Virus record (IMG/VR): IMGVR_UViG_3300046001_006250 | Coordinates: 1-35,735 of that record | Length of the DNA stretch: 35,735 nucleotides | Origin: a virus | Reading direction: 5' to 3' (one strand) | In this document: positions 6,425 to 35,735 of the stretch, piece by piece | Layout: each line of letters begins with the position of its first letter | Numbering within the stretch: position 1 is the first letter of the stretch | The notes under the pieces: model-generated | The model's database searches: none | Told to the model about the DNA's origin: nothing | Seen by the model: only the letters and a program-made list of their open reading frames with translations | Made by a program: the position numbers and the translations under genes

Positions 6425-9400
6425 TTAATTATAAAGCTCTGGGTAAAGTTTAGCCAATTGTGTTTCGGTGTTTATTTTAAACGACTCAGCTTCGTTTACT
6501 GAACATATATTAATAATAGACTCATTTTTATATTTTGTAAAGAGTTTTAAGTTTTTAATGATCGTACTATCTGGTTTACTTGTCTCCCTGAATGTAACTT
6601 TATAATCATCATAACTACCCTTAATTAATTTATTTTGTGTCTCTATTCTATCTAACACTTTACTTGAATCGTCAATACCAAAAATGTTTTTATTTATTTT
6701 TTTTATGGTATTATCATTTATATTTGACGCATAATTAAAAACATCAGTTAAATCAGAGTCATATTTTTTAACAAAAGTTTCGATAAGTTTGAATGTGTCC
6801 TCAATCGATTTTTTAATTTTGGATATTTGTTTTTTCTTATACCCAATAAGCCTTATCGGGTTATTTCTGATACTCGCTGGGGGGTTAATACCAGTATTTT
6901 CTATTTTAGCCATAATAGCTTCAATATGAACTGATTTGTTCACATAAAGATTATATAAAAATTCTATGAATAAAACATCTTGCATAGCTGACATTTTTAC
7001 CGTTTCACCATATACGTCACTATTATAACTTAATTTAAGTTTTTGTTGGTCTGGTAATGAATTAATATACTCTTCTGTTATGGTATAATCATAAGCCATT
7101 AAAGTATTAAGGTTTTTTAATTGCGTTTTTAAATCAGTATCAGTTAAATTTGGGTTATTATCATTAAATAAATAATAATTTATCTCTTTTATAAAACTAT
7201 TACCAGAATTAGTTTTCTTATTTAAACCATAGTAAAATAAAACATCTGAAATCGTTAATTTGCTTGTTGGAACACCAGAAGTTCCAGAAGTTCCTGAAGT
7301 TCCTGAAATACCAGATGTCCCAGAGGTACCAGATGTCCCAGAGGTACCAGATGTCCCAGAGGTACCAGAGGTTCCAGATGCCCCTGGGTTTAATAAAATA
7401 CCACTCAAATTATTAATCTGTAAATCAAATTCATAGGCTGGTGTATAAACTAAATCAATGTCATTGTTTTTAGTTTCAGAATCATCTGATAACATAAAAT
7501 CTAACGTTTTATTACTAAAATCTAACAACTCATAATTAATTTTTTCAAATGTATATTGCATTTGGTACTTACCTTGATTATATATGTTATTAGCCGTATT
7601 AGTTACGTTAGTGCTATCATCCCTACTAACCAATGCATATGACGTGGTTTCTAAAGACCTAGCGCTGGTACCGTACTCATAAGGGTTAAATGAGAAGTTC
7701 TGATCTGTTGGGCTAGTATTCGATGGTAAAGTTAATTGACCAAACTTAAAAGTGTTCGTAGCTGCCGTACCATTGATTTTTAATACATTATTTGATGGTA
7801 AAAAATTATTAAAATCATACTGATTTGGTAAGTCTGTAAGTGTTGGATAACCTAACACTTCACTAATGTAAGTCATATTCCTTATATACTCTTTAATAAC
7901 ACTATCAGATATTGTATTATCCAGTTCGTTTTTAAGTTGTTTAAAGAAATACAATCCGTTACCAAGTGACGCGTATTTTTTTATTAAACTAGGTGTTGGT
8001 GCACCAGTACCAGTACCAGTAGTAAGAATATTATAAACACCACTTAAATTAATTAATTCACCACCGTCTATTGATAATTTTTTATATTCTTCATACGGAT
8101 TGTAACCAAACATTGTACTATCATTGATTGGGGTACTTAATTTTTTAGCGTTAGGTATTACTTCATATAATGTGGCTCTACCCTCTGAATATGTTGCATC
8201 ATAACCGTATAATGGTAGTGATAAACCAGCTAAGATAACTGACATTTTTGCGATTGAATCATTTAACGCTGTTATCGTTAAGTCGGTATCTGAATCTCTC
8301 TTAGAATAAAAGTTTGTAAATTCCGTATCAATATAACTCGTAAAATCTTTTATGTGCCCAGTTTCCAGATTTTTATAAAAGTTTTTAAACCCTTTTAAAT
8401 CATCTGTTGTATCAAACCAAAAACCTAAAGTGTTTGTCGCAATTTTTGTTCTAAACTCATCAACAAAGTTAGATTCAATATCTTTATATATTTTTATACC
8501 ATTCGTATCTTTAAAGAAAATACCACCAGTTTCAGATTTACCATCTACATTGTTTGTATAACCATTCGTAAAATTACCTTGGAAATATTTACCACTTCTA
8601 CCGTTATTTTGTGCGCTTGTTAAAGCTGTGAAATTATAAGGTAAACCTTTACCATCACCAATTTTAAACATGTACTCTTGTGGGTGTAAATTTAATTTTA
8701 AAGCTTCAAAAGGTTCTGGTTTATTACCATTTTTACTTAAAAAAAATGGGTGTTGTTTAAACACATCACCAAGTTCTAAATATCTTCTTTCTTCAGCGAC
8801 CGTGTTAAAGATTTGATAGTATGTTAAACCATTAAGGACTACCTCTCCGTTAACCTCTGTTGGTATAGTTGTATCAGATATGTTACTAATTATCTCACTT
8901 ATAGTAGTATCAGTACCAGATAAAGGTTTTTTATAATTTTTATTTCTTAATACATTATTAAGTACTTTGTATTTACCAACTGTTTTATCTTCTGTTTTAC
9001 CGATGTAATTAGCAAAATTATTTACGTAATCACCAAAACCATAATACAACTCACTAAATAAATCATAATATTGTATATCATATCTTTGCATGTAGTTTCT
9101 ACCGTATTCTTGTCTAAAAGCGTATTCACCAAAATTAGAATGGTCTATTGCGGTCCAAACTTTCTTCGCGTCTTGTGGTAATGGGTCGGTTGGTTTTAAT
9201 TTTGTGTAAACACCATTAACAATTGGGTATTGGTTAGCTGTTCTAACATAATATTGACCAAGATAAGTAACACACGCTTCCGTTTGATATTCTTTTGTTG
9301 CATCAAATTCCACCGCACTAGTTAATTGATTATAATACGTGCCACCAGCCAATTTTGGTAATAACCTTTCGCTAATAACACCAATCGTACCATAAGGTAT

Positions 9401-12400
9401 TGGTAAACCTTCTGTTGAAGGTATTATTAACTCAGCTGCTTTAACAATTGGGATTAAATCCAATGAATTTTCAACAAAAAAATCTTGTTCAAGATTTATT
9501 AAATCTCTTTCTCTTCTATCTGTATTAGCAAACGTTCTTTCATCATATACATCTGTATTTGCGTAATAGTTAAATGTTAACGCGTTTTGTAATTGATCAA
9601 CATATCTTCTTAAACCTTGTCCACCAATATATTTAAATGACATAGTGACTTTTGCAAGCATCGGTTGTACACCAATACCTTCAGGGTTTAAATCCCATAA
9701 TAACGGATCATAATTAATATTTAAACTATTAATAATAATTTTTGTGTGATAAAAATCACCAATTCTTAAAACAGATACAGGTGGTCTACCAAACGCTGTA
9801 TTCTTAGCATCGCAACCAGAAATACCAATGTCCTTGGTGATTGTATCACCAGGTCTCATACATTGCTGTAAAAAGGTTAATCTAGCGTTTAACCCTTCAG
9901 GTGTCATCGCATGGAATGCTGGGCTAAAATATTTTAATTTTTCTTTTAAACTATCAAAAATAATCGGTGATTCTTTTGACAAATATTCGAAGTAATCACA
10001 TTCTGTTAATAATTTATTAAGTATTCTTTGCGCAATCTCTCTTTTTGTAACATTGGTTGTTGGGGCTTTTTCTTCAACATACAATGGTGATGTTTCAGCT
10101 GGTGGTTCTTCTCTTTTCAAAGGAATTTCTTTTGGGGTTAAAGTTGATTTAACCTCAACCCTTCTAGCGAATGAAGCTATTCCTGATAAGTTACCGCAAA
10201 CAACATCCGCTTCTGTTTTTGTTACTTGTTGAAATGATGGCTTTTGACGTATAGATACACACGTACCGATAAATTCCTTACCTTTTGTTTCCGTGTTTCC
10301 TTCTGGTAATGAAGGTATAAACGGATTTTTAATTATTTCATCGAACTCATCATATGTTCTAACCATATAATATGTTTTGTTTTCACCATAAGGAATAGCG
10401 AAATACTCTATACCTTCATCTGTTTTTAATGGTTTACCAAATAGTTTAGTATATTCATTTTCTATTTTTATATTAGGATCATCAATAGAGTCTTGATATA
10501 AATCAGCCACTGTTTGACCGCCACCTTGTTGGATGCTAAACGTAATCAATTGTCTTTCTTCTGTACCAACCTCACCTCTATAAATTATGATATTTTTAGT
10601 TGTTTCTAAATCACCATGTAATTTATCAACAACGGTTCCATCACTTATCTCTTCGTTTTCTAATGTGAAGCATTTAATATTATTACTAGTCATTACATTG
10701 AGTATTAACCATTTTGTAACCGAAACAAATCTTCTTGACGCTAATTTATCGTTATATTTCTGTAAAGCATCTTGATTTTGACCAGGAGCTGATGGTGATG
10801 CGTAAGCAAGCATAGCAATACTTATATTATAATCTTTAACAGACGTATAATTATCCGCTGAATAAGTTGTGGCAACGCTTTCTTTTTGTTTTTTATAGTT
10901 ATATGCTGGTGATTGGTTAGGGTCTAAAGGGTCCCCAAAGAAGTATTCATTACCTGCGGGCGCAGATTCACCTAAAGTATAGGCATATTGAATCCATTTC
11001 TTTTCCCCACTTTCTGAAAGAGGTTTACCGCTTACAGTCTGTTCTTGATATTCAGAGTTTTTTTCAAGATCTATATTATTAGCTAGATTTGAATATATAT
11101 TGTAATATACATCATACCCATCCACCTTGAAATCTTTAGGTTCTTTATAAATATTTTTAGATAGAGGTATATCGTTTTCAAAAAATAAATTAAATGTACC
11201 ATTAATTATTGTCTGAAGCGATGGTGTTTCAATTTTAATACTTTCTTGTTGGAAACTACCTGATGATTCAACTTTAGATCTAATTTTATCATTTGGTAAT
11301 CTAACATCTAAATCAGCTATAACTTTTTTAAAATATTCGATATCACTATCACTGAATACACCCCAAATTCTCGCCAACTCAAAAATGTCATAATCCAAAC
11401 AACCAGCCCAGAAAGCCGCCAATAATTCATCAACCTCACCATCTGTTAAAGCCGCAAATTCTTTATCCACCAATAAGTTCATTATTGTCGGGTGATCAAC
11501 AACAATATCCCATGATAATGTTCCAGCTCTTTCGGTGTTGTTATATGTGTATATTGCCTCTGGTCTACCTAAGAATTGATGTGTTGTCCAGTTTGTTGTC
11601 GTATCATCTGTAAATCTTATGTTATATGGTGGGAACCACATAATTCTACCACCATTAGAACCTTTTTCACAAGGTGGTAAGTCTCTGAACTGAGCTGAAT
11701 CTCTCCAAGCTAAGTTCTCAAGTGAGAACATGTATTTTCTAGCTCTTTTTTCACCAAAAGCTTCAACAACAGCATCACCCAATCCATCACCCAATCTACC
11801 GTAACCTTCGTTAACATTAAGCGCTGATGGGTGTATATTTAAATTTCCGTATCTATCCAATACAGAGTTTCTTTCTTTTCTATTTAACTCTTTCCATCTA
11901 ATAAGGTCAGTTACTTTTGAGAATGGTTTTGCTTTTGTCCAAGACCTACAAAGAGAAACCTCATTGTACATTTTTTTACCATCTCTATTACCACCTCTAT
12001 CTAAACCTGGTATCAGATAGTTATAACCAGTAACCTCACCTTTTTTGTTTTTTCTTTCAACCTTAAAAGGTGATATTACATTAGAACCTTTTGATGAAAA
12101 AGTATATCCATCAAAAAATTTAGTTTTTGTTTGGTCAATAGAATTGATCGCATCATTTCTTCCACCAGCTTCCAATAATTTTTGTGTAACAGCTAATATT
12201 GAACAATCTCTAAATCTACTAGCAGAATTTACTGATAAGCTACCGATATCCTTAATTTTACCATCCCAACTATCTGGATATGATGTCATTGCGACTGGAT
12301 CCATAAAAGTTTCTTTACTCTCACCTCTCCAAATAAATGAAGTTTGAATTGACCCATATTTTGAAACATCTTCAACACCTGGTTCAATATAATAATTTTC

Positions 12401-15286
12401 AATACCACCCTCTCTCTTTATTCTAATAGCTCTGGTTAACTCACTATTAGCTCTAACTTGTAAACCGTTATCATCTTGTAATAAATGAAATATACTAACA
12501 TTTTTACCAGCTGTAATGTATGGGGTAAAAACAACATCTTCAGTACCTTTTTGAGCTTTTGCAGCTCTTTTAAATAACCTAGTATCAGCACCTCTTAATT
12601 TACTCTGATAGTCTGGGGAGTACTTGTTATTACCAAGATTTGAAAATAAGAAAAATCTTTGCGCTCTACCAGTTTCATCTAGTCTATCAATAACTCTATT
12701 TTCTAATTTATCTTCTATTCTTGAGTTACCACTATCATTTGCACCAAAACATGTTGGTCTTAAAACAATAGAATCGTCTTCAAAGAATTCAGATGTTAAT
12801 CCACCTAAATTAGTGATATCTGAAATAAAACTAGCTAATTTACCTAAACCACCTTTAAATGTTGTGATATCAGCGTTACCTCTTTCAATTATTGATGATG
12901 GGTCTTTAATAAATTCAATAACTTTAAGTGGGTTTTTTAACATATCATCAATAGTTGTTAAACCAGCCACCTCTTGAGCTGTTTTAGTTAATAGTCTTGT
13001 TTTTAAATGAAATTTTAATTCCAAGGCACCTATTTGTGCTAATAACGTATCATTTTTTAAACCAGGTTCCGTTAATAAATTAGTGATATCTAAATTAGGA
13101 CCTAATAGAACGCTCAACGGAGTTGATGCTGTAGGTACGTTTAAGAAATCACCCATCTTTATATTAACTGGGTCGGAATTGTTTAATTTATCTTCTGTAA
13201 GATATGGATTTTGTGGTGTATTTGGTGTATTATTTAATAATAAATTCTCTAAAATTTCATAAACAATAGTATTTTCAGCACCATATTTATTGGTTACTAC
13301 GTTTTTTGTATAGTCAGTTGTAAGCGATGATAATTGTGCTTGATTAGGTACAATAAAATCATTTATCAATGTTGCTGTACCAACTGGGATAGCACCTGGG
13401 TTAGACAAAGCAAAAGCGTCTGTTGGATCTGTTGGATCCTTTGCCATATTTTTATTAAACAAACTGATCATTATTGGACCAGATAATGTACCAATATCAC
13501 CAGGGTTAACATTTGAAAATGTACTTATTTGTGATAATGTACCTCTACCAGCTAAATATTGAGCAGCAACTGACGCACTTGGTGATAATGTTGTAATACC
13601 AGCAGCAACATCAATTGGTGTGTTTAATGTCATTGAGATGTTTAAAGCTCTTGGTGTTACAGAGTCTGTAAGAACATCACCAGGATTAACAACATTAAAG
13701 TTATTAATTGTTGTATCTAAACCTCTACCAGCTAAGTATTGTGATGCGATTAAACCTGAAGGTGTTAAATTAACAATACCAGCGGCGATATCAGCTGGTG
13801 TGTTCAAATTCATCGCAAGATCCAATGTTCTTGGTGCAAATGAATCGGTAACAATATTACCAGGGTTTATGTTAATATAATCATTAATAACACTATTTAA
13901 ACCTCTACCAGCTAAATATTGTGCAGCCAAAGAACCGCTTAATGATGTAACCCCAGCAGTGATGTCCGCAGGTGTATTTAATGTTCGTGCAAAGTTTGAA
14001 TTTCTTGGTATTACAGAGTCTGTAACAACATTACCAGGATTTACATTAGGTAAAGTTGTAATCGCAATAAATGTACCTTTACCTGAAAGATATTGTGCAG
14101 CGTAGGCACCACTTAAATTTGTTAATCCAGCTGTTATATCAACTGGTGTACTTAATGTTTGTGCAAAGTTTTGTGTTCTTGGTCCTACAGCTTGTGTTAT
14201 AACATTACCAGGATTTACATTAGGTAAAGTTGTGATAGCAACAAATGTACCTTTACCTGAAAGATATTGTGCGGCTAAAGAAGCACTAGGGCTTAAGTTA
14301 TTTACACCAACAGTGATATCCGTAGGTGTACTTAATGTTTGAGCAAAGTTTTGTGTTCTTGGTGTTATGGCTTGTGATATAACGTCACCAGAGTTAACAA
14401 CATTAAATGTATTGATAACACTAGGTGTTCCAAGACCTGATAAATATTGAGCAGCAAACGATGCGTTAGGTGTTAAGTTGTTTACGCCAGCGGTGATGTC
14501 TGTTGGTGTACCGATGTTCATTGCAAGGTCTAATGTCCTTGGTGCAACCGAATCGGTTACTACATCCCCAGAGTTAGTATTTTGGAAATTATTAATTACC
14601 GTAAAAGCACCCTTACCAGAAAGGTATTGGGCTGCGTATGTTGCGTTAGGCGTTAAATTTTGTACACCAGCAGTAATATCAGCTGGTGTGTTTAATGTCA
14701 TAGCAAAATCCAAATTTCTTGGTGCAACGGCATCTGATAATACATTACCAGGGTTAATATTAATAAAATCATTAACAATTGTTAAAGCGCCTCTACCTGA
14801 AAGATACTGAGCCGCAATCGCTGCATTAGGTGTTAAGTTATTTACACCAGTAGTAATATCTGTAGGTGTATTTAATGTATGTGATAAACCCAAATTTCTT
14901 GGCGCAACAGATTCTGTTAGCGCATCACTTGGGTTTGTATTTGAAAAATCGTTTATTACTGTTAATTGACCTTTACTATTAACTAAAGAAGCTACATAAG
15001 CAGCACTTGTAGTTGTGTTAAGTAAACCAGCATTAATGTCAGCTGGTGTATTTAATGTTTTATTAAGGTTTGCTGTTCTTGCTGGGATACCATTAGTATC
15101 AACATCACCAGGGTTTTGTACGTTATAAAAATGTATTGCGGTATCTTGTCCCAATGAACTTAAATACGCATTAACTGTAACCGAATTAGTTAGATTAACT
15201 AAACCAGTTACAACATCAGGTGGGGCCTGTAAATTTAAATTAAGGATCACATTCCTAAACTGTCCCGATATACTATTTAAGCTCAT
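6425..15286 (-). CDS. Giant baseplate/tail structural protein with ten N-terminal repeats (2953 aa)
   Basis: The largest gene in the window. Residues about 19-610 are ten repeats of 57-60 aa (separate entry). Residues about 1210-1270 hold a WFPPYNIRF...W...QF.GRPE...Y.Y..[16 protein letters not shown] block. Its layout (N/YNIRF, W, G(R), T-L-S, D) resembles the first domain of the CIS-tube/Afp7-gp53 group that joins tail tube to baseplate. Residues about 1825-1920 contain a [11 protein letters not shown]...[14 protein letters not shown]...IGGQGL block that I believe is conserved in giant structural proteins of related phages. Residues 2635-2670 are a collagen-like Gly-Thr-Ser run. The C-terminal 280 residues are charged and helical. 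No enzyme motif is evident. A role in the baseplate is inferred from its place between the tape-measure genes and the LysM/gp53-like gene. Confidence 0.8.
7277..7384 (-). repeat. Gly-Thr-Ser collagen-like run within the 2953-aa protein
   Basis: Residues 2635-2670 of the giant protein are twelve consecutive Gly-X-Ser triplets (GAS, ten GTS, one GIS). At DNA level 7311-7364 is three exact 18-bp copies (CCAGATGTCCCAGAGGTA), flanked by diverged 9-bp units, so the run has probably expanded by slippage or recombination. Gly-X-Y runs are common as flexible or collagen-like linkers in phage tail proteins. Confidence 0.9.
13457..15232 (-). repeat. Ten tandem ~60-aa repeats at the N-terminus of the 2953-aa protein
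   Basis: Units run end to end over residues 19-610 with lengths 59, 60, 60, 60, 60, 60, 58, 58, 60 and 57. The consensus begins (L)NTPxDITAGVxNL(T/S)P, continues AAQYLSGxGxxxxIN and ends NPG(D/N)VxTxSVxPRxLxxA. The first two and the last units are most diverged and the middle ones most alike, as expected of internal duplication. Each unit has NPGD-like and PR turns, suggesting repeated small beta or helix-turn modules. No function is known to me. Confidence 0.92.
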
Positions 15287-23821: not shown

Positions 23822-26800
23822 TTATATGTTATCAAATGATACGTTTTGTGGAGTTACTGTAAATTCAAGTTCAATGAATTCTAAAGTAGGTGTTGGTTTG
23901 ATAAAGATTCTACCTCTTAATGTGTTTCTATCGTTATCTTCAACGTCCATTGCAACGCTAACTCTAAAGTCTGTTAAACCTCTTTCTTTTCTGATGTTAT
24001 CCAAAATTGGGTTAACCAAAGACAAGAATTGATTTCTAACTGTAGTATCGTTTGGATCAAATAATAATCTCTTAGATACACTCATGATCAATCTTCTTGC
24101 TTGTAATAACAATCTTCTGATGTTAAGTCTATCAAGAGCACTTGATTTGATTTGCAAGTTTCTGTTACCCCAGATAACAACCCCAACGTCTGAATAAGTC
24201 GCTAATGGATTAATTCTACCTGGATATAAAACATCTCTAGATTCTTGGTCAAGAACAATACGAGCTCTATTACATTTTACTAAACCTCTATTGTAACCAG
24301 CAGTTGCAAACCAAGGGAATGCTACGTTATCAGTGTAAGCCATGTTTCTTACTACTTCAGCAGTAGGTGGGATAAACAAGTTTGCATTGTTGTCTGTATC
24401 TACGATTTGAATCCAAGGATAGTAAACCGCAGTGTAGTTAGAATCAATTTCAGTATTTTCTAATTCACTAACGATATCTTCCGCATAGTACCAGTTTTCA
24501 GTATCTGAAGGGTTGTTATTGTTTAACAACTTGATATCAGGTAATGTTGGTAAATAAATCGCATCCAATCTTTTTTCTTCAACAACCTCAATTGCATCTC
24601 TAACCAAGTCAGTATTATTTAAAATATCAATACCTGGTGTTGCTAAAATATTGATAGCAGTTTCTTCTGGGTTTTGGAATTTTTTGATACCGTACATTGT
24701 AGCGTAGTAATCAGAAGTACCAAATAACTCAGCGTATTCAACATTTGTGAATGTATCGAATAATCCAGCTACGAAACCAGTTCTACCGATTTTATAATCA
24801 TCTGTGTTTGTTCTGTTAACTCTATACTCATCCCAACCATCAAAACCACCATAAAATAAAGCTGTGAATTTTCTTGTTCTCATGTTATTGTATGGGTGAG
24901 TTGTTGTTCCATCAACAACTATTGGATCAATGAATGAAGCGACACCAACAGAAAAAACTTGTTCTCCAGTTACAGAATCAATAAGGCTACTTGCGTTAAT
25001 ATCCATGTGGAAACCTTTTGTTTTAGTTACGTAATCATCTCCAGTGTTATAAGCGTTGTCACCTAAAGTACTGATTTTACCTTTGAATAATAACAAATCT
25101 TTATCAGCACCAAATTGAGTTGAAAAACCTAAGTAGTGTTTTCTTATTACATCACCACTAGAAACTGTAGCGTTAGCAAATGGCGGGTTATAAATTGTAT
25201 CACCAGGTGCATAATATTTAAGTTTGTATGGTATTTCTGGAACCTCTGTAGCTGTGTAACCGCTTAAACCATTTGTTCTAAATTCATATCCTTCAAAACC
25301 AGCTGGAACACCATCTATAGGGGCGTTTATAGCCATTTCAAGTACAACATAAGAACTCTTAAGTGGATATTTGTTATCAATTGTACCTATTTTTCTACCA
25401 ACAAAGTTATCTAACGATTCGTCCATTGTACAATCAACAAATTTTTCAATTATAGAAGCGTTTGCATCTGTGTCACTAAATGATCTAACGTAGATATCAA
25501 ATGTTTTCTTAGATAAATCAACATTAGCGATTGAAGCTTTAATTTCAGTATTAGCGTTAGCACCGTCAGAGATTGAGATTAATCTAAACAATCTTTGTGG
25601 TAAACCACCTCTTAATTCAGATACGAAGAAAGGTGTTACTGGTGATTGATACTGGAATCTGTAGTGATCCCAATCATTAACTGATGTTAATTCACTGTAT
25701 AAACCTTTAATTTTACCGTTTAATCTACCAAATTTTAAAGAAGCATCATAAGTTTCCTCAACGTAGATATAAGAATCTTTATTGTTTGGTGTTGTACCAA
25801 CCACTTTTTTAATGTAGTTAGATTTTGTGCTATCTAAAGAAACTGTATATGTGAATGTGCTACCAGTTGGGTTTGCACTTGTACCAGTTAAATCAAAAGC
25901 TAAGTATGGATCATTAACAATCCCTATTGGGGCAACCATATCCAATGTGTTAACTTTATAACCTAATATATCTGAAGTATAAGTACCTCTACTTCTTATA
26001 GTTGCAACATTTTTGTTATGACCTTCCATGAATGGATCAGCCATTAAATCAACAGTGAATAATTCTAAAACACCATTAATAATAGTAGCACCAGCAGATG
26101 TAAATGTGTGGCAATATAAAGCAAACGAAGGTCCGTTATATGTTTGAGTACCTGTGTTATATGTTAATTCATTATTTAAGATATAAGCATCTCTATCAGC
26201 AGAAGGTATTGTAAAAGGTAACTCATATGCATCAACATAATTTGGTGTTAAACTGTGTGTAGCTGCGTCAACTGTTAAATCAGTATCCATATCTTGAGTC
26301 AAAAGACCCCAGTATAAAGCATCACCAACATAAAAGTCAGCTGTTGTATAAGTACCAATAGTTGTAAAGAATTGATTAAATGATGTATCAAAATCTGTTG
26401 TATCAACACCAGTTGCGGTAGCGATATAATCAATTAAATCAGTATTACCAGAAACCCCAGTGACATAAAAAGTATTACCGCTAGTATCGAACTGAAAATT
26501 AATTGATGTTTGAGTAACACCGCTAGTTGTTAAAGTTGATTGATCGATCGCACCTAATGTTTTAATAACCCAAGCCATACCAGCATCGTAGCCAGATAAA
26601 CCTAAAAGTCTTGTTACATACAATTGGTTTGATTGAGTTAAATACTGTTTTGCAATGTACGGTAATTCGTACTTAACAATCTGCGTATTTTTAAATTTTT
26701 CTGGGTTAGTACCACCAAAAGTAGTTTTAAATTCATCGAAATTTCTGATGAATATTGGTTGGAATGCTGGACCTTTTAAGGTTTCACCAACTAAACCTAA

Positions 26801-26887
26801 TGTTGTAACACCAACTGTCTCAGTTGTAAATGATAAGTCCTTTTCGGTTGTGTAGACACCTGGAGATGCATAAACTTTGTTTGCCAT
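23822..26887 (-). CDS. Tail sheath protein, T4 gp18-like (1021 aa)
   Basis: The N-terminus MANKVYASPGVYTTEKDLSF and the following GLVGETLKGPAF and FDEFKTTFGG segments are the classic opening of contractile sheath proteins. The C-terminal part is equally typical: GYNRGLVKCNRARIVLDQES, NPLATYSDVGVVIWGNR, a basic helix LNIRRLLLQARRLIMSVSKR, LFDPNDTTVRNQFLSLVNPIL and a final beta segment ending TVTPQNVSFDNI. At 1021 aa it is far longer than T4 gp18 (659 aa). The extra length lies in the middle (roughly residues 120-700) and is Thr/Asn/Asp/Gly-rich, as expected of surface-exposed insertion domains. A TATTTAT element lies upstream and a terminator downstream, so it is probably monocistronic and strongly expressed. 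Confidence 0.95.
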   Translation of the reverse strand: MANKVYASPGVYTTEKDLSFTTETVGVTTLGLVGETLKGPAFQPIFIRNFDEFKTTFGGTNPEKFKNTQIVKYELPYIAKQYLTQSNQLYVTRLLGLSGYDAGMAWVIKTLGAIDQSTLTTSGVTQTSINFQFDTSGNTFYVTGVSGNTDLIDYIATATGVDTTDFDTSFNQFFTTIGTYTTADFYVGDALYWGLLTQDMDTDLTVDAATHSLTPNYVDAYELPFTIPSADRDAYILNNELTYNTGTQTYNGPSFALYCHTFTSAGATIINGVLELFTVDLMADPFMEGHNKNVATIRSRGTYTSDILGYKVNTLDMVAPIGIVNDPYLAFDLTGTSANPTGSTFTYTVSLDSTKSNYIKKVVGTTPNNKDSYIYVEETYDASLKFGRLNGKIKGLYSELTSVNDWDHYRFQYQSPVTPFFVSELRGGLPQRLFRLISISDGANANTEIKASIANVDLSKKTFDIYVRSFSDTDANASIIEKFVDCTMDESLDNFVGRKIGTIDNKYPLKSSYVVLEMAINAPIDGVPAGFEGYEFRTNGLSGYTATEVPEIPYKLKYYAPGDTIYNPPFANATVSSGDVIRKHYLGFSTQFGADKDLLLFKGKISTLGDNAYNTGDDYVTKTKGFHMDINASSLIDSVTGEQVFSVGVASFIDPIVVDGTTTHPYNNMRTRKFTALFYGGFDGWDEYRVNRTNTDDYKIGRTGFVAGLFDTFTNVEYAELFGTSDYYATMYGIKKFQNPEETAINILATPGIDILNNTDLVRDAIEVVEEKRLDAIYLPTLPDIKLLNNNNPSDTENWYYAEDIVSELENTEIDSNYTAVYYPWIQIVDTDNNANLFIPPTAEVVRNMAYTDNVAFPWFATAGYNRGLVKCNRARIVLDQESRDVLYPGRINPLATYSDVGVVIWGNRNLQIKSSALDRLNIRRLLLQARRLIMSVSKRLLFDPNDTTVRNQFLSLVNPILDNIRKERGLTDFRVSVAMDVEDNDRNTLRGRIFIKPTPTLEFIELEFTVTPQNVSFDNI

Positions 26888-34540: not shown

Positions 34541-35735
34541 ATGGCTGAATACAAAATATCCCTTGAAGAAATAGAAAGATTTTTAAATGGACACGATGAT
34601 GAGAAATACATCGTTAATGTTGAGTATGACGCTGAAACAAATTTAATTCATAAAATTAAACAAGACCCTGAAAAAGGTAATTTAATTGAGACAGAACCTT
34701 TAATGGCTTTTATGTGGATTAAAAATCTTAACAAGGTTAAGGATTTAACTAATTTTTATGATAACAGTGATTCTAAAATTAAATCAGCTAGACAAAGATT
34801 TGGTATTGAAATCAAATCTTTAGGTGGTGATCACCCAAAATTATTAGAAGGTTATAGATATTTAGTTACCTGTAATCAAGGTAATAAAAGAATGTTAGAT
34901 TTCTTCAGAGAAGGTGGTATCTACGTATATGACACAAGAAACGATATTAAATCACACTTTTTAATGATATCACCTGTTGAGCAATATTTTATACACACTG
35001 GTAAACGTTTGTTTAAAGGGTTTGAAGAATATGATGATATCCATAAATTTATATTTGACTTAGAGACAACAGGTTTAGACCCAAATATTAATAGAATATT
35101 CTTGATTGGTATCTACACTAATAAAGGTGTTAAAGAAATCATACCAGTTGAAAATAATGATGAATCTGAAAGACAAGCAATCACAAAATTCTTCGAAGTT
35201 ATTAATAATATTAAACCAACAATTATTGCTGGTTATAATAGCGCTAACTTTGATTGGGATTTCTTTTTTGTCCGTTGCCAAAAACTTGGTTTAGATATTC
35301 AAGATATTGCGATAACACTTAAACCAGGTGAACTTATCCAAAGAAAAGAAAAAAGTATGCTTAAACTTGGTAATGAGGTAGAGGAATATACCCAAACTAA
35401 TATGTTTGGTTATAGCATCATTGACATCATACACTCAGCTAGACGTGCACAAGCGATTGATTCAAGCATGAAATCTGTTGGTTTAAAATACGTTTGTAAG
35501 TATAACAAGATCGCCAAAAAGAATCGTGTTTACATTGTCGGTGATAAAATCGGTAACACATGGTACTCAGAAGATAAATTCTATTTTGATGATAGAACTG
35601 GCGCATATTCTAAGACAAAACCAGCTTTAGAATTTATGGATTATATTCGTAGAGAAGATATCCAAGCTAACCCAGATAAAGTGTTTATTTTTGGTGATAA
35701 CTTATTAAGAGAAGGTCTTGGTGGTCAGGCAATCC
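34541..35735 (+). CDS. Family B DNA polymerase, N-terminal and exonuclease part, with probable inserted FGDNL/GGQA domain; 3' end cut by window
   Basis: 398 codons are present. Residues 1-165 are the N-terminal domain. The 3'-5' exonuclease follows: Exo I FIFDLETTGLDP (D173, E175) and Exo II AGYNSANFDWDFFF (N233, F237, D238). The conserved SMKSVGLKYVCKYNKIAKK region and a Tyr/Trp-rich linker come next. Exo III (YxxxD) and all polymerase motifs should lie beyond the window. Instead, residues 367-398 read DYIRREDIQANPDKVFIFGD and on to NLLREGLGGQAI. That is the opening of a small phage/bacterial protein type normally seen alone. The frame is unbroken, so a domain appears to be inserted between Exo II and Exo III. 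A Bacteroidota-type promoter lies just upstream. The polymerase identity is secure; the insertion is inferred from the visible 32 residues. Confidence 0.9.
   Translation, partial: MAEYKISLEEIERFLNGHDDEKYIVNVEYDAETNLIHKIKQDPEKGNLIETEPLMAFMWIKNLNKVKDLTNFYDNSDSKIKSARQRFGIEIKSLGGDHPKLLEGYRYLVTCNQGNKRMLDFFREGGIYVYDTRNDIKSHFLMISPVEQYFIHTGKRLFKGFEEYDDIHKFIFDLETTGLDPNINRIFLIGIYTNKGVKEIIPVENNDESERQAITKFFEVINNIKPTIIAGYNSANFDWDFFFVRCQKLGLDIQDIAITLKPGELIQRKEKSMLKLGNEVEEYTQTNMFGYSIIDIIHSARRAQAIDSSMKSVGLKYVCKYNKIAKKNRVYIVGDKIGNTWYSEDKFYFDDRTGAYSKTKPALEFMDYIRREDIQANPDKVFIFGDNLLREGLGGQAI

Follow-up and report, generated by a model that had tools for sequence, protein, structure and literature searches.

We found that the last gene of the window (the whole 35,735-base stretch analyzed here, which is one whole virus record) encodes the 5' part of a family B DNA polymerase (PolB) in which, near certainly, a complete DUF7831 domain is inserted between the Exo II and Exo III motifs. 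We consider it likely, with good confidence, that this is a macro-type domain similar to those of DarG and TARG1. Our best overall explanation, to which we give a probability of roughly 40%, is that the macro-type cassette reads or removes ADP-ribose on the template DNA and in this way counters a DarT-like defense.

The polymerase ORF (34541–35734, plus strand) stays open up to the contig end, where the gene is truncated. It contains the following features:

34541..35734, plus strand: family B DNA polymerase gene, 5' part (398 of 1033 aa; PF03104, phrog_262)
35057..35065, plus strand: Exo I, D173 and E175, invariant in 20 aligned polymerases
35237..35257, plus strand: Exo II, N233 to W239 (NSANFDW), with N233, F237, D238, and W239 invariant in the 20 aligned polymerases
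35618..35735, plus strand: DUF7831 insert, 5' part, from aa 360 on (PF25176, E 2e-8, match from aa 364 at position 35630)
35690..35701, plus strand: FGDN motif, aa 384–387, at least 90% conserved in 70 DUF7831 sequences
35720..35731, plus strand: GGQA motif, aa 394–397, at least 90% conserved in the same 70 sequences

Exonuclease models of family B polymerases match the fragment, as does DUF7831 at aa 364–398. Its frame runs unbroken through Exo I and Exo II, just as the earlier note on this DNA had read it from D173/E175, N233, F237, and D238. Elsewhere the window holds an ORF of 2953 aa on the minus strand (6425–15286) and a tail sheath gene (23822–26887).

Two other contigs, L002 and L003, have zero mismatches with the window across the 6 kb upstream of the polymerase ORF, and within the ORF the differences are confined to the last three bases (35733–35735), which are probably a contig-end artifact of the window. 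The whole gene is present in L002 (6001–9102) as a frame of 1033 aa, in which DUF7831 occupies aa 364–478 (profile positions 2–116 of 118; E 6e-44; 149 bits vs. a curated cut-off of 27) and the insert extends to about aa 488. After the insert, in the same frame, come Exo III (Y503, D507), motif A (D589), the motif B region (K654), and motif C (D707, T708, D709), the names of these four being our own assignment. The key residues of Exo I–III and the palm (D173, E175, N233, D238, Y503, D507, D589, K654, D707, D709) are invariant among the 20 aligned polymerases, and the gene reads as a family B DNA polymerase with a 3'–5' exonuclease whose Exo I–III and palm motifs A, B, and C share one frame. 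The polymerase thus looks intact with its insert, and, judged from the sequence, its class assignment is DUF7831 inside PolB. No intein-type match was found in the L002 polymerase at E up to 1, and a single DUF7831 match fills the insert. A full-length model of the polymerase was weak (pTM 0.50); its best PDB matches were archaeal PolB structures (KOD, 9N), with low TM-scores on the query (0.26–0.33 among the 50 matches shown).

These results bear on several expectations of the earlier note. A stop or frameshift just past position 35735 was looked for and is absent, the L002 frame running on to 1033 aa, and the Exo III and palm motifs that it expected in frame after the insert are present there. 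It had placed the start of the insert at residue 367, which is close to the beginning of the Pfam match at 364, although the RRED it associated with that point stands at aa 370. The final I of its GGQAI was read from the contig-end bases that disagree with L002 (GGQAKE) and falls away.

Some signs could point to an assembly chimera or a pseudogene: the domain is cut off by the end of the window, whose last three bases do not agree with L002, and one relative (L037) has a broken polymerase frame. Against such an origin, which we regard as close to negligible, the same architecture recurs, by our own tally, in 30 further contigs drawn from 29 metagenome datasets. The 13 of these that were aligned, besides L002, carry polymerases 50%–95% identical to that of L002, and all insert-bearing ORFs except that of L037 have at least 1023 aa.

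Related polymerases without the domain delimit the insertion. We searched with the polymerase alignment and used the best 80 of 561 confirmed matches, and the frequencies given here refer to that sample; together with loci collected earlier, and with repeated loci included, these yielded 123 ORFs matching the polymerase profile. The spacing between Exo II and Exo III was 270–273 residues in 47/47 ORFs with DUF7831 and 140–189 in 72/72 measurable ORFs without it. The 76 ORFs lacking the domain comprised 67 at 150–159, four at 180–189, one at 140–149, and four fragments that were not measured. Removing identical ORFs and ORFs of 850 aa or less left 81, of which 21 carry the insert. At the insert site itself, the block measures 137–142 residues with the domain, whereas polymerases without it have a linker of 15–25 residues (36 in a small subgroup). 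These insert-free polymerases of uncultured phages (e.g., L014–L024, L308–L371) are alike in the rest of the protein, with best-segment identities of 42%–46% and 52%–56%. The full-length relatives with and without the domain thus bear out the earlier proposal that an accessory domain separates Exo II from Exo III, and the alignment it had called for places the length difference at that site.

Some members of this polymerase family show other peculiarities. In L343, L344, and L351, the linker at the insert site is a different one of 36 residues. The polymerase ORFs of L019 and L024 contain a long intein-like insertion that splits motif C between VGD and TDG. Another case is L037 (1843–5186), whose insert-bearing polymerase frame is interrupted and which has an additional ORF matching the polymerase in a different frame.

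On a polymerase tree inferred by a quick method, the distribution of the insert needs two changes, with a clade of 20 insert-bearing polymerases and L064 standing among insert-free ones. A tree of 21 rows inferred by a more careful method needs the same two changes, with L064 on a long branch. If these trees hold, they would mean two gains of the insert, or one gain and one loss; the domain tree does not resolve the L064 insert relative to the others. Seven insert-bearing records that were searched, possibly fragments, have only the polymerase copy of DUF7831, and none of nine insert-free records (again possibly fragments) has any copy. The polymerase fragment has matches in 17 records of an annotated phage collection, and all of them stop at or before query residue 346. 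Such an insert in a polymerase was not found in open-license PMC papers, including the accessible part of PMC7824862.

We next consider what the domain is. An AlphaFold2 model of DUF7831 built from 70 sequences had a mean pLDDT of 95. When this model was compared by VIA-align with Foldseek's 1000 best structures (995 aligned), macro domains took ranks 1–16 of the 50 shown (Z 7.1–5.8), led by TARG1 (2l8r at 7.1, 4j5s at 7.0) and DarG (5m3i at 6.9), and the first other fold followed at Z 5.0; by the tool's own note, Z below 8 is not proof. Foldseek itself found no match to the model in the PDB at E ≤ 0.001, and its top rows were mainly phosphatases. Against BFVD it gave nine matches at E ≤ 0.001, of which six are named DUF7831 and three are other large or unnamed proteins; these matches also show that the giant viruses Tupanvirus, Hyperionvirus, and Yasminevirus have DUF7831 proteins.

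Direct sequence comparisons gave no macro assignment. There was no Pfam Macro (PF01661) match in the L002 polymerase at E up to 1, and the insert had no NCBIfam match at E up to 10. Searching PDB sequences with the domain (phmmer, hmmsearch) returned nothing credible, and PDB profile matches included no macro domain at E 10, the best being triosephosphate isomerase at E 0.06. For a comparison with DarG, we used 14 of the 15 macro domains adjoining DarT in Bacteroidota genomes, leaving out the near-copy L188; PF01661 searches of genomes gave a match in one of five, with loci L182, L183, L203, and L204 left out. A direct hhalign comparison of DUF7831 with DarG gave 10.8%, out of register, and 11 of 100 column shuffles scored as high; DarG against the insert blocks of the polymerase alignment gave at most 2.7%.

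A third family connects the two. A1S_2505 (NF049995), a phage non-structural protein family, shares PHROG 2072 with the insert and has a profile match to DUF7831. Five A1S_2505 sequences linked to DUF7831 at 92.3% and to DarG at 60.0%. With 85 sequences, the match of A1S_2505 to DUF7831 reached 93.7% (score 45.1; shuffle maximum 24.0, reached in 0/100) and that to DarG 95.5% (score 53.9; shuffle maximum 22.4, reached in 0/100). As a control, A1S_2505 against polymerase blocks outside the insert region gave at most 0.5%. A merged profile of DUF7831 and A1S_2505 matched DarG at 73.9% (score 34.4; 0/100 shuffles reach it, maximum 19.7), a result that is not independent of the chain from DUF7831 through A1S_2505 to DarG. 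The merged alignment places GIVTK on NFPTK and PKMGIGTGL on PPLGCGNGG, so that TK falls on TK and the glycine loops align; a TK also stands at the same profile place in TARG1. A DarG profile gave weak matches (E 9e-5 to 7e-4) to four A1S_2505 ORFs and none to any DUF7831 ORF at E 0.01. The A1S_2505 proteins carry motif variants of their own (FGSN/AIPT/GCGLAG) and have no PF25176 match.

The insert shares with DarG and TARG1 the predicted fold and the order and spacing of the TK and PxxGxGxG motifs, and with DarG also the N-x7-G-x-A spacing. It differs in lacking a direct profile match and a found DarT partner, and in length (about 115–130 residues vs. about 150 for the DarG macro domain). We did not assign it to the Pfam Macro or DarG family, because the features of these families were looked for and not found, but it probably works like such a domain.

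Residue comparisons suggest how. In Thermus aquaticus DarG, as described in the available part of PMC5179494, 11 residues are named as ADP-ribose contacts (among them N22, T79, G117, G119, and G121), K80 is catalytic, and N22A, K29E, G119E, and K80A impair the enzyme. We propose as their counterparts in L002 N387 (N22), T411 (T79), K412 (K80), G458 (G117), G460 (G119), and G462 (G121), a matching that is based on the A1S_2505 profile chain and on motif spacing and register. It covers five of the 11 named contacts plus K80 and leaves aside N8, L9, T20, V31, Q34, and N120. Each of the six proposed residues is conserved in at least 90% of the 70 DUF7831 sequences. The pattern N-x7-G-x-A...TK...PxxGxGxG occurs in 56/70 DUF7831, 13/14 DarG, and 0/85 A1S_2505 sequences; among 4362 distinct ORFs of at least 100 aa it had 115 hits, and the 114 listed were all DUF7831 or DarG when judged by eye. 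Because we wrote this pattern with the comparison of the two families already in hand, it serves as a consistency check and not a blind test.

Within the 21 distinct inserts, the counterparts of N22, T79, and G119 are kept in all 21, that of K80 in 20, that of G121 in 18, and that of G117 in 15. FGDN, (G/A)GQA, and GIGTG are intact in 12 of the 21. One or more of these motifs are altered in the remaining nine: the last loop in L007 and L013, and all three places in L008, L010, L011, L012, L063, L298, and L299. L008 and L010–L012 are near-identical and make up four of the nine. L063 has R where the K80 counterpart stands. "Degraded" was considered as a description of the altered inserts and dropped, since N and T are kept in 21/21 and K in 20/21. 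A core that is largely kept while the rim varies would be expected of a binding module that faces changing attack, although relaxed constraint could produce it too.

The kept lysine also bears on whether the domain is a ligand sensor that binds ADP-ribose, NAD, or a related host-defense signal and switches synthesis or proofreading with no removal of an adduct. A sensing role is assumed for some macro domains (PMC9503650, in the part available), the insert lies directly before the Exo III helix, and in the large phage protein L086 a SLOG domain precedes DUF7831. Yet the counterpart of the catalytic lysine, present in at least 90% of the DUF7831 sequences and in all but one insert, is more than pure binding requires, and we judge a sensor unlikely. 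Metabolite sensing, an effect on proofreading, and counter-defense had all been suggested in the earlier note; of these ideas, which are of an inferential kind, an ADP-ribose-type ligand and counter-defense are now the leading options because of the predicted macro fold and the DarG-like residues.

In L063, L298, and L299, a D stands at the place of DarG G121 (the last glycine of GIGTG), as in TARG1 in the alignment, and a shift from DarG-like to TARG1-like chemistry is possible in these lineages. TARG1, the top structural row, is a protein de-ADP-ribosylating enzyme whose D125 takes part in the hydrolysis step, according to the accessible text of PMC5179494; we infer that D125 is the aligned D. 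The domain might accordingly act on ADP-ribosylated protein and not on DNA, stripping the modification that a host transferase has placed on the polymerase or on its replication partners. Fixation in a DNA polymerase, together with one copy in a virion RNA polymerase, fits the template better, and we hold a protein substrate to be quite improbable. We turn next to the other places where the domain occurs.

The likeness that the earlier note had seen to small separate proteins of phages and bacteria was borne out on both sides. A DUF7831 match was found in 99 phage records; three that were opened are short genes of their own, and the 40 listed are hypothetical proteins, except for one that has no annotation. 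In bacterial genomes we found 56 loci, mostly short ORFs, with titles mainly of Acidobacteria, Methylobacterium, and Hymenobacter. Such separate DUF7831/phrog_2072 proteins share the whole domain and its motifs with the insert and differ in that the domain is not inside a polymerase; the best relatives of the insert outside polymerases are about 45%–53% identical to it. The name DUF7831 is absent from open-license PMC papers, and we found no function or structure for the family.

By our own reading, 17 of the 80 best viral DUF7831 loci have the domain in ORFs of at least 700 aa other than the polymerase. We scanned 15 large ORFs (14 from viral loci, one bacterial by its record), and the end of the locus truncates many of them. 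In one, L066:3–7379, the protein that holds DUF7831 is an N4-type virion RNA polymerase (phrog_2206, E 7e-84). Another, L086:3–7316, is the large phage protein mentioned above, in which a circularly permuted YpsA SLOG domain lies directly before DUF7831. Among the 15, two match a virion structural protein and one each a Dda-like helicase, exonuclease V, and a DprA-like protein. The virion RNA polymerase was considered as the usual large host of DUF7831 and rejected, as it accounts for 1/15 large ORFs. On a 339-kb phage contig, L023:6001–9792 encodes an orthologous polymerase that has no insert and is fused instead to an A1S_2505-type domain at its C terminus, for which no Pfam match was found. 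This fusion and the DUF7831 insert imply that related domains joined this polymerase family at two places.

In six pairs of the window's clade, dN/dS was 0.06–0.18 in the insert vs. 0.02–0.07 elsewhere in the gene. The inserts of L002 and L007 are 59% identical, compared with 86% and 88% for the flanks; by blocks, aa 302–344 and aa 517–559 are 98% identical, and the three blocks spanning aa 345–473 are 51%–65% identical. The insert data reject the polymerase-derived grouping of these rows (AU p 0.0011), with long branches present. From these sequences, the cassette appears to have been either exchanged or quickly changed, and quick change is somewhat favored because synonymous divergence between L002 and L007 is not raised in the insert (1.12 vs. 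1.59 and 1.15).

The altered FGDN, GGQA, or GIGTG in 9/21 inserts whose length and neighboring sequence persist could be taken to mean that the domain is now mainly a structural or docking surface (e.g., for a replisome partner) and that its ligand chemistry is unimportant. The N and T counterparts kept in every insert, the K counterpart kept in all but one, and the dN/dS of the insert in the window's clade (0.06–0.18) argue otherwise, and we see only a small chance of this.

We return to the reading that the domain acts on ADP-ribose of the template. In the available parts of the cited papers, DarT ADP-ribosylates single-stranded DNA and stalls replication (PMC7003065), the DarG macro domain reverses the DarT modification (PMC7003065; PMC5179494), and phages escape DarTG through DNA polymerase mutations (PMC11481870; PMC10684548). 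We detected DarT in 18/198 genomes of one phylum, Bacteroidota, which was chosen as the phylum of a Hymenobacter locus and may not be the host phylum of these phages. In the phages themselves, Pfam DarT had no match in 11 records, some of them fragments, and a home-made DarT profile had none among 11,188 ORFs of the collected loci; as a control, this profile found four of seven left-out DarT loci.

DUF7831 lies in the polymerase loop directly before the Exo III helix. As we envisage it, this DarG-like module would hold or cleave ADP-ribose on thymidines (or some other adduct) of the single-stranded template while the polymerase moves along, encountering the modification ahead of copying, and the outcome would be that a DarT-like ADP-ribosylating defense fails to stop replication. 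In some lineages the motifs are altered, with the N/T/K core largely kept. ADP-ribose as the ligand, its hydrolysis, DNA as the substrate, and DarT as the opponent are all putative, and we put forward this function only tentatively, at distinctly less than even odds. A still more specific version, which is rather unlikely as a whole, would make the insert a built-in ADP-ribosyl-DNA hydrolase that clears DarT adducts ahead of the active site, with the cassette in the N4-type virion RNA polymerase doing likewise for transcription and with the cassette being exchanged or quickly changed under attack by the defense.

The orphan Pfam family DUF7831 gains from this work a testable fold and chemistry, and a place inside a replicative polymerase. 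If our explanation is true, phages would have built a counter-defense enzyme into the very machine that the defense stops, and the escape from DarTG by polymerase mutations would have a natural, dedicated counterpart.
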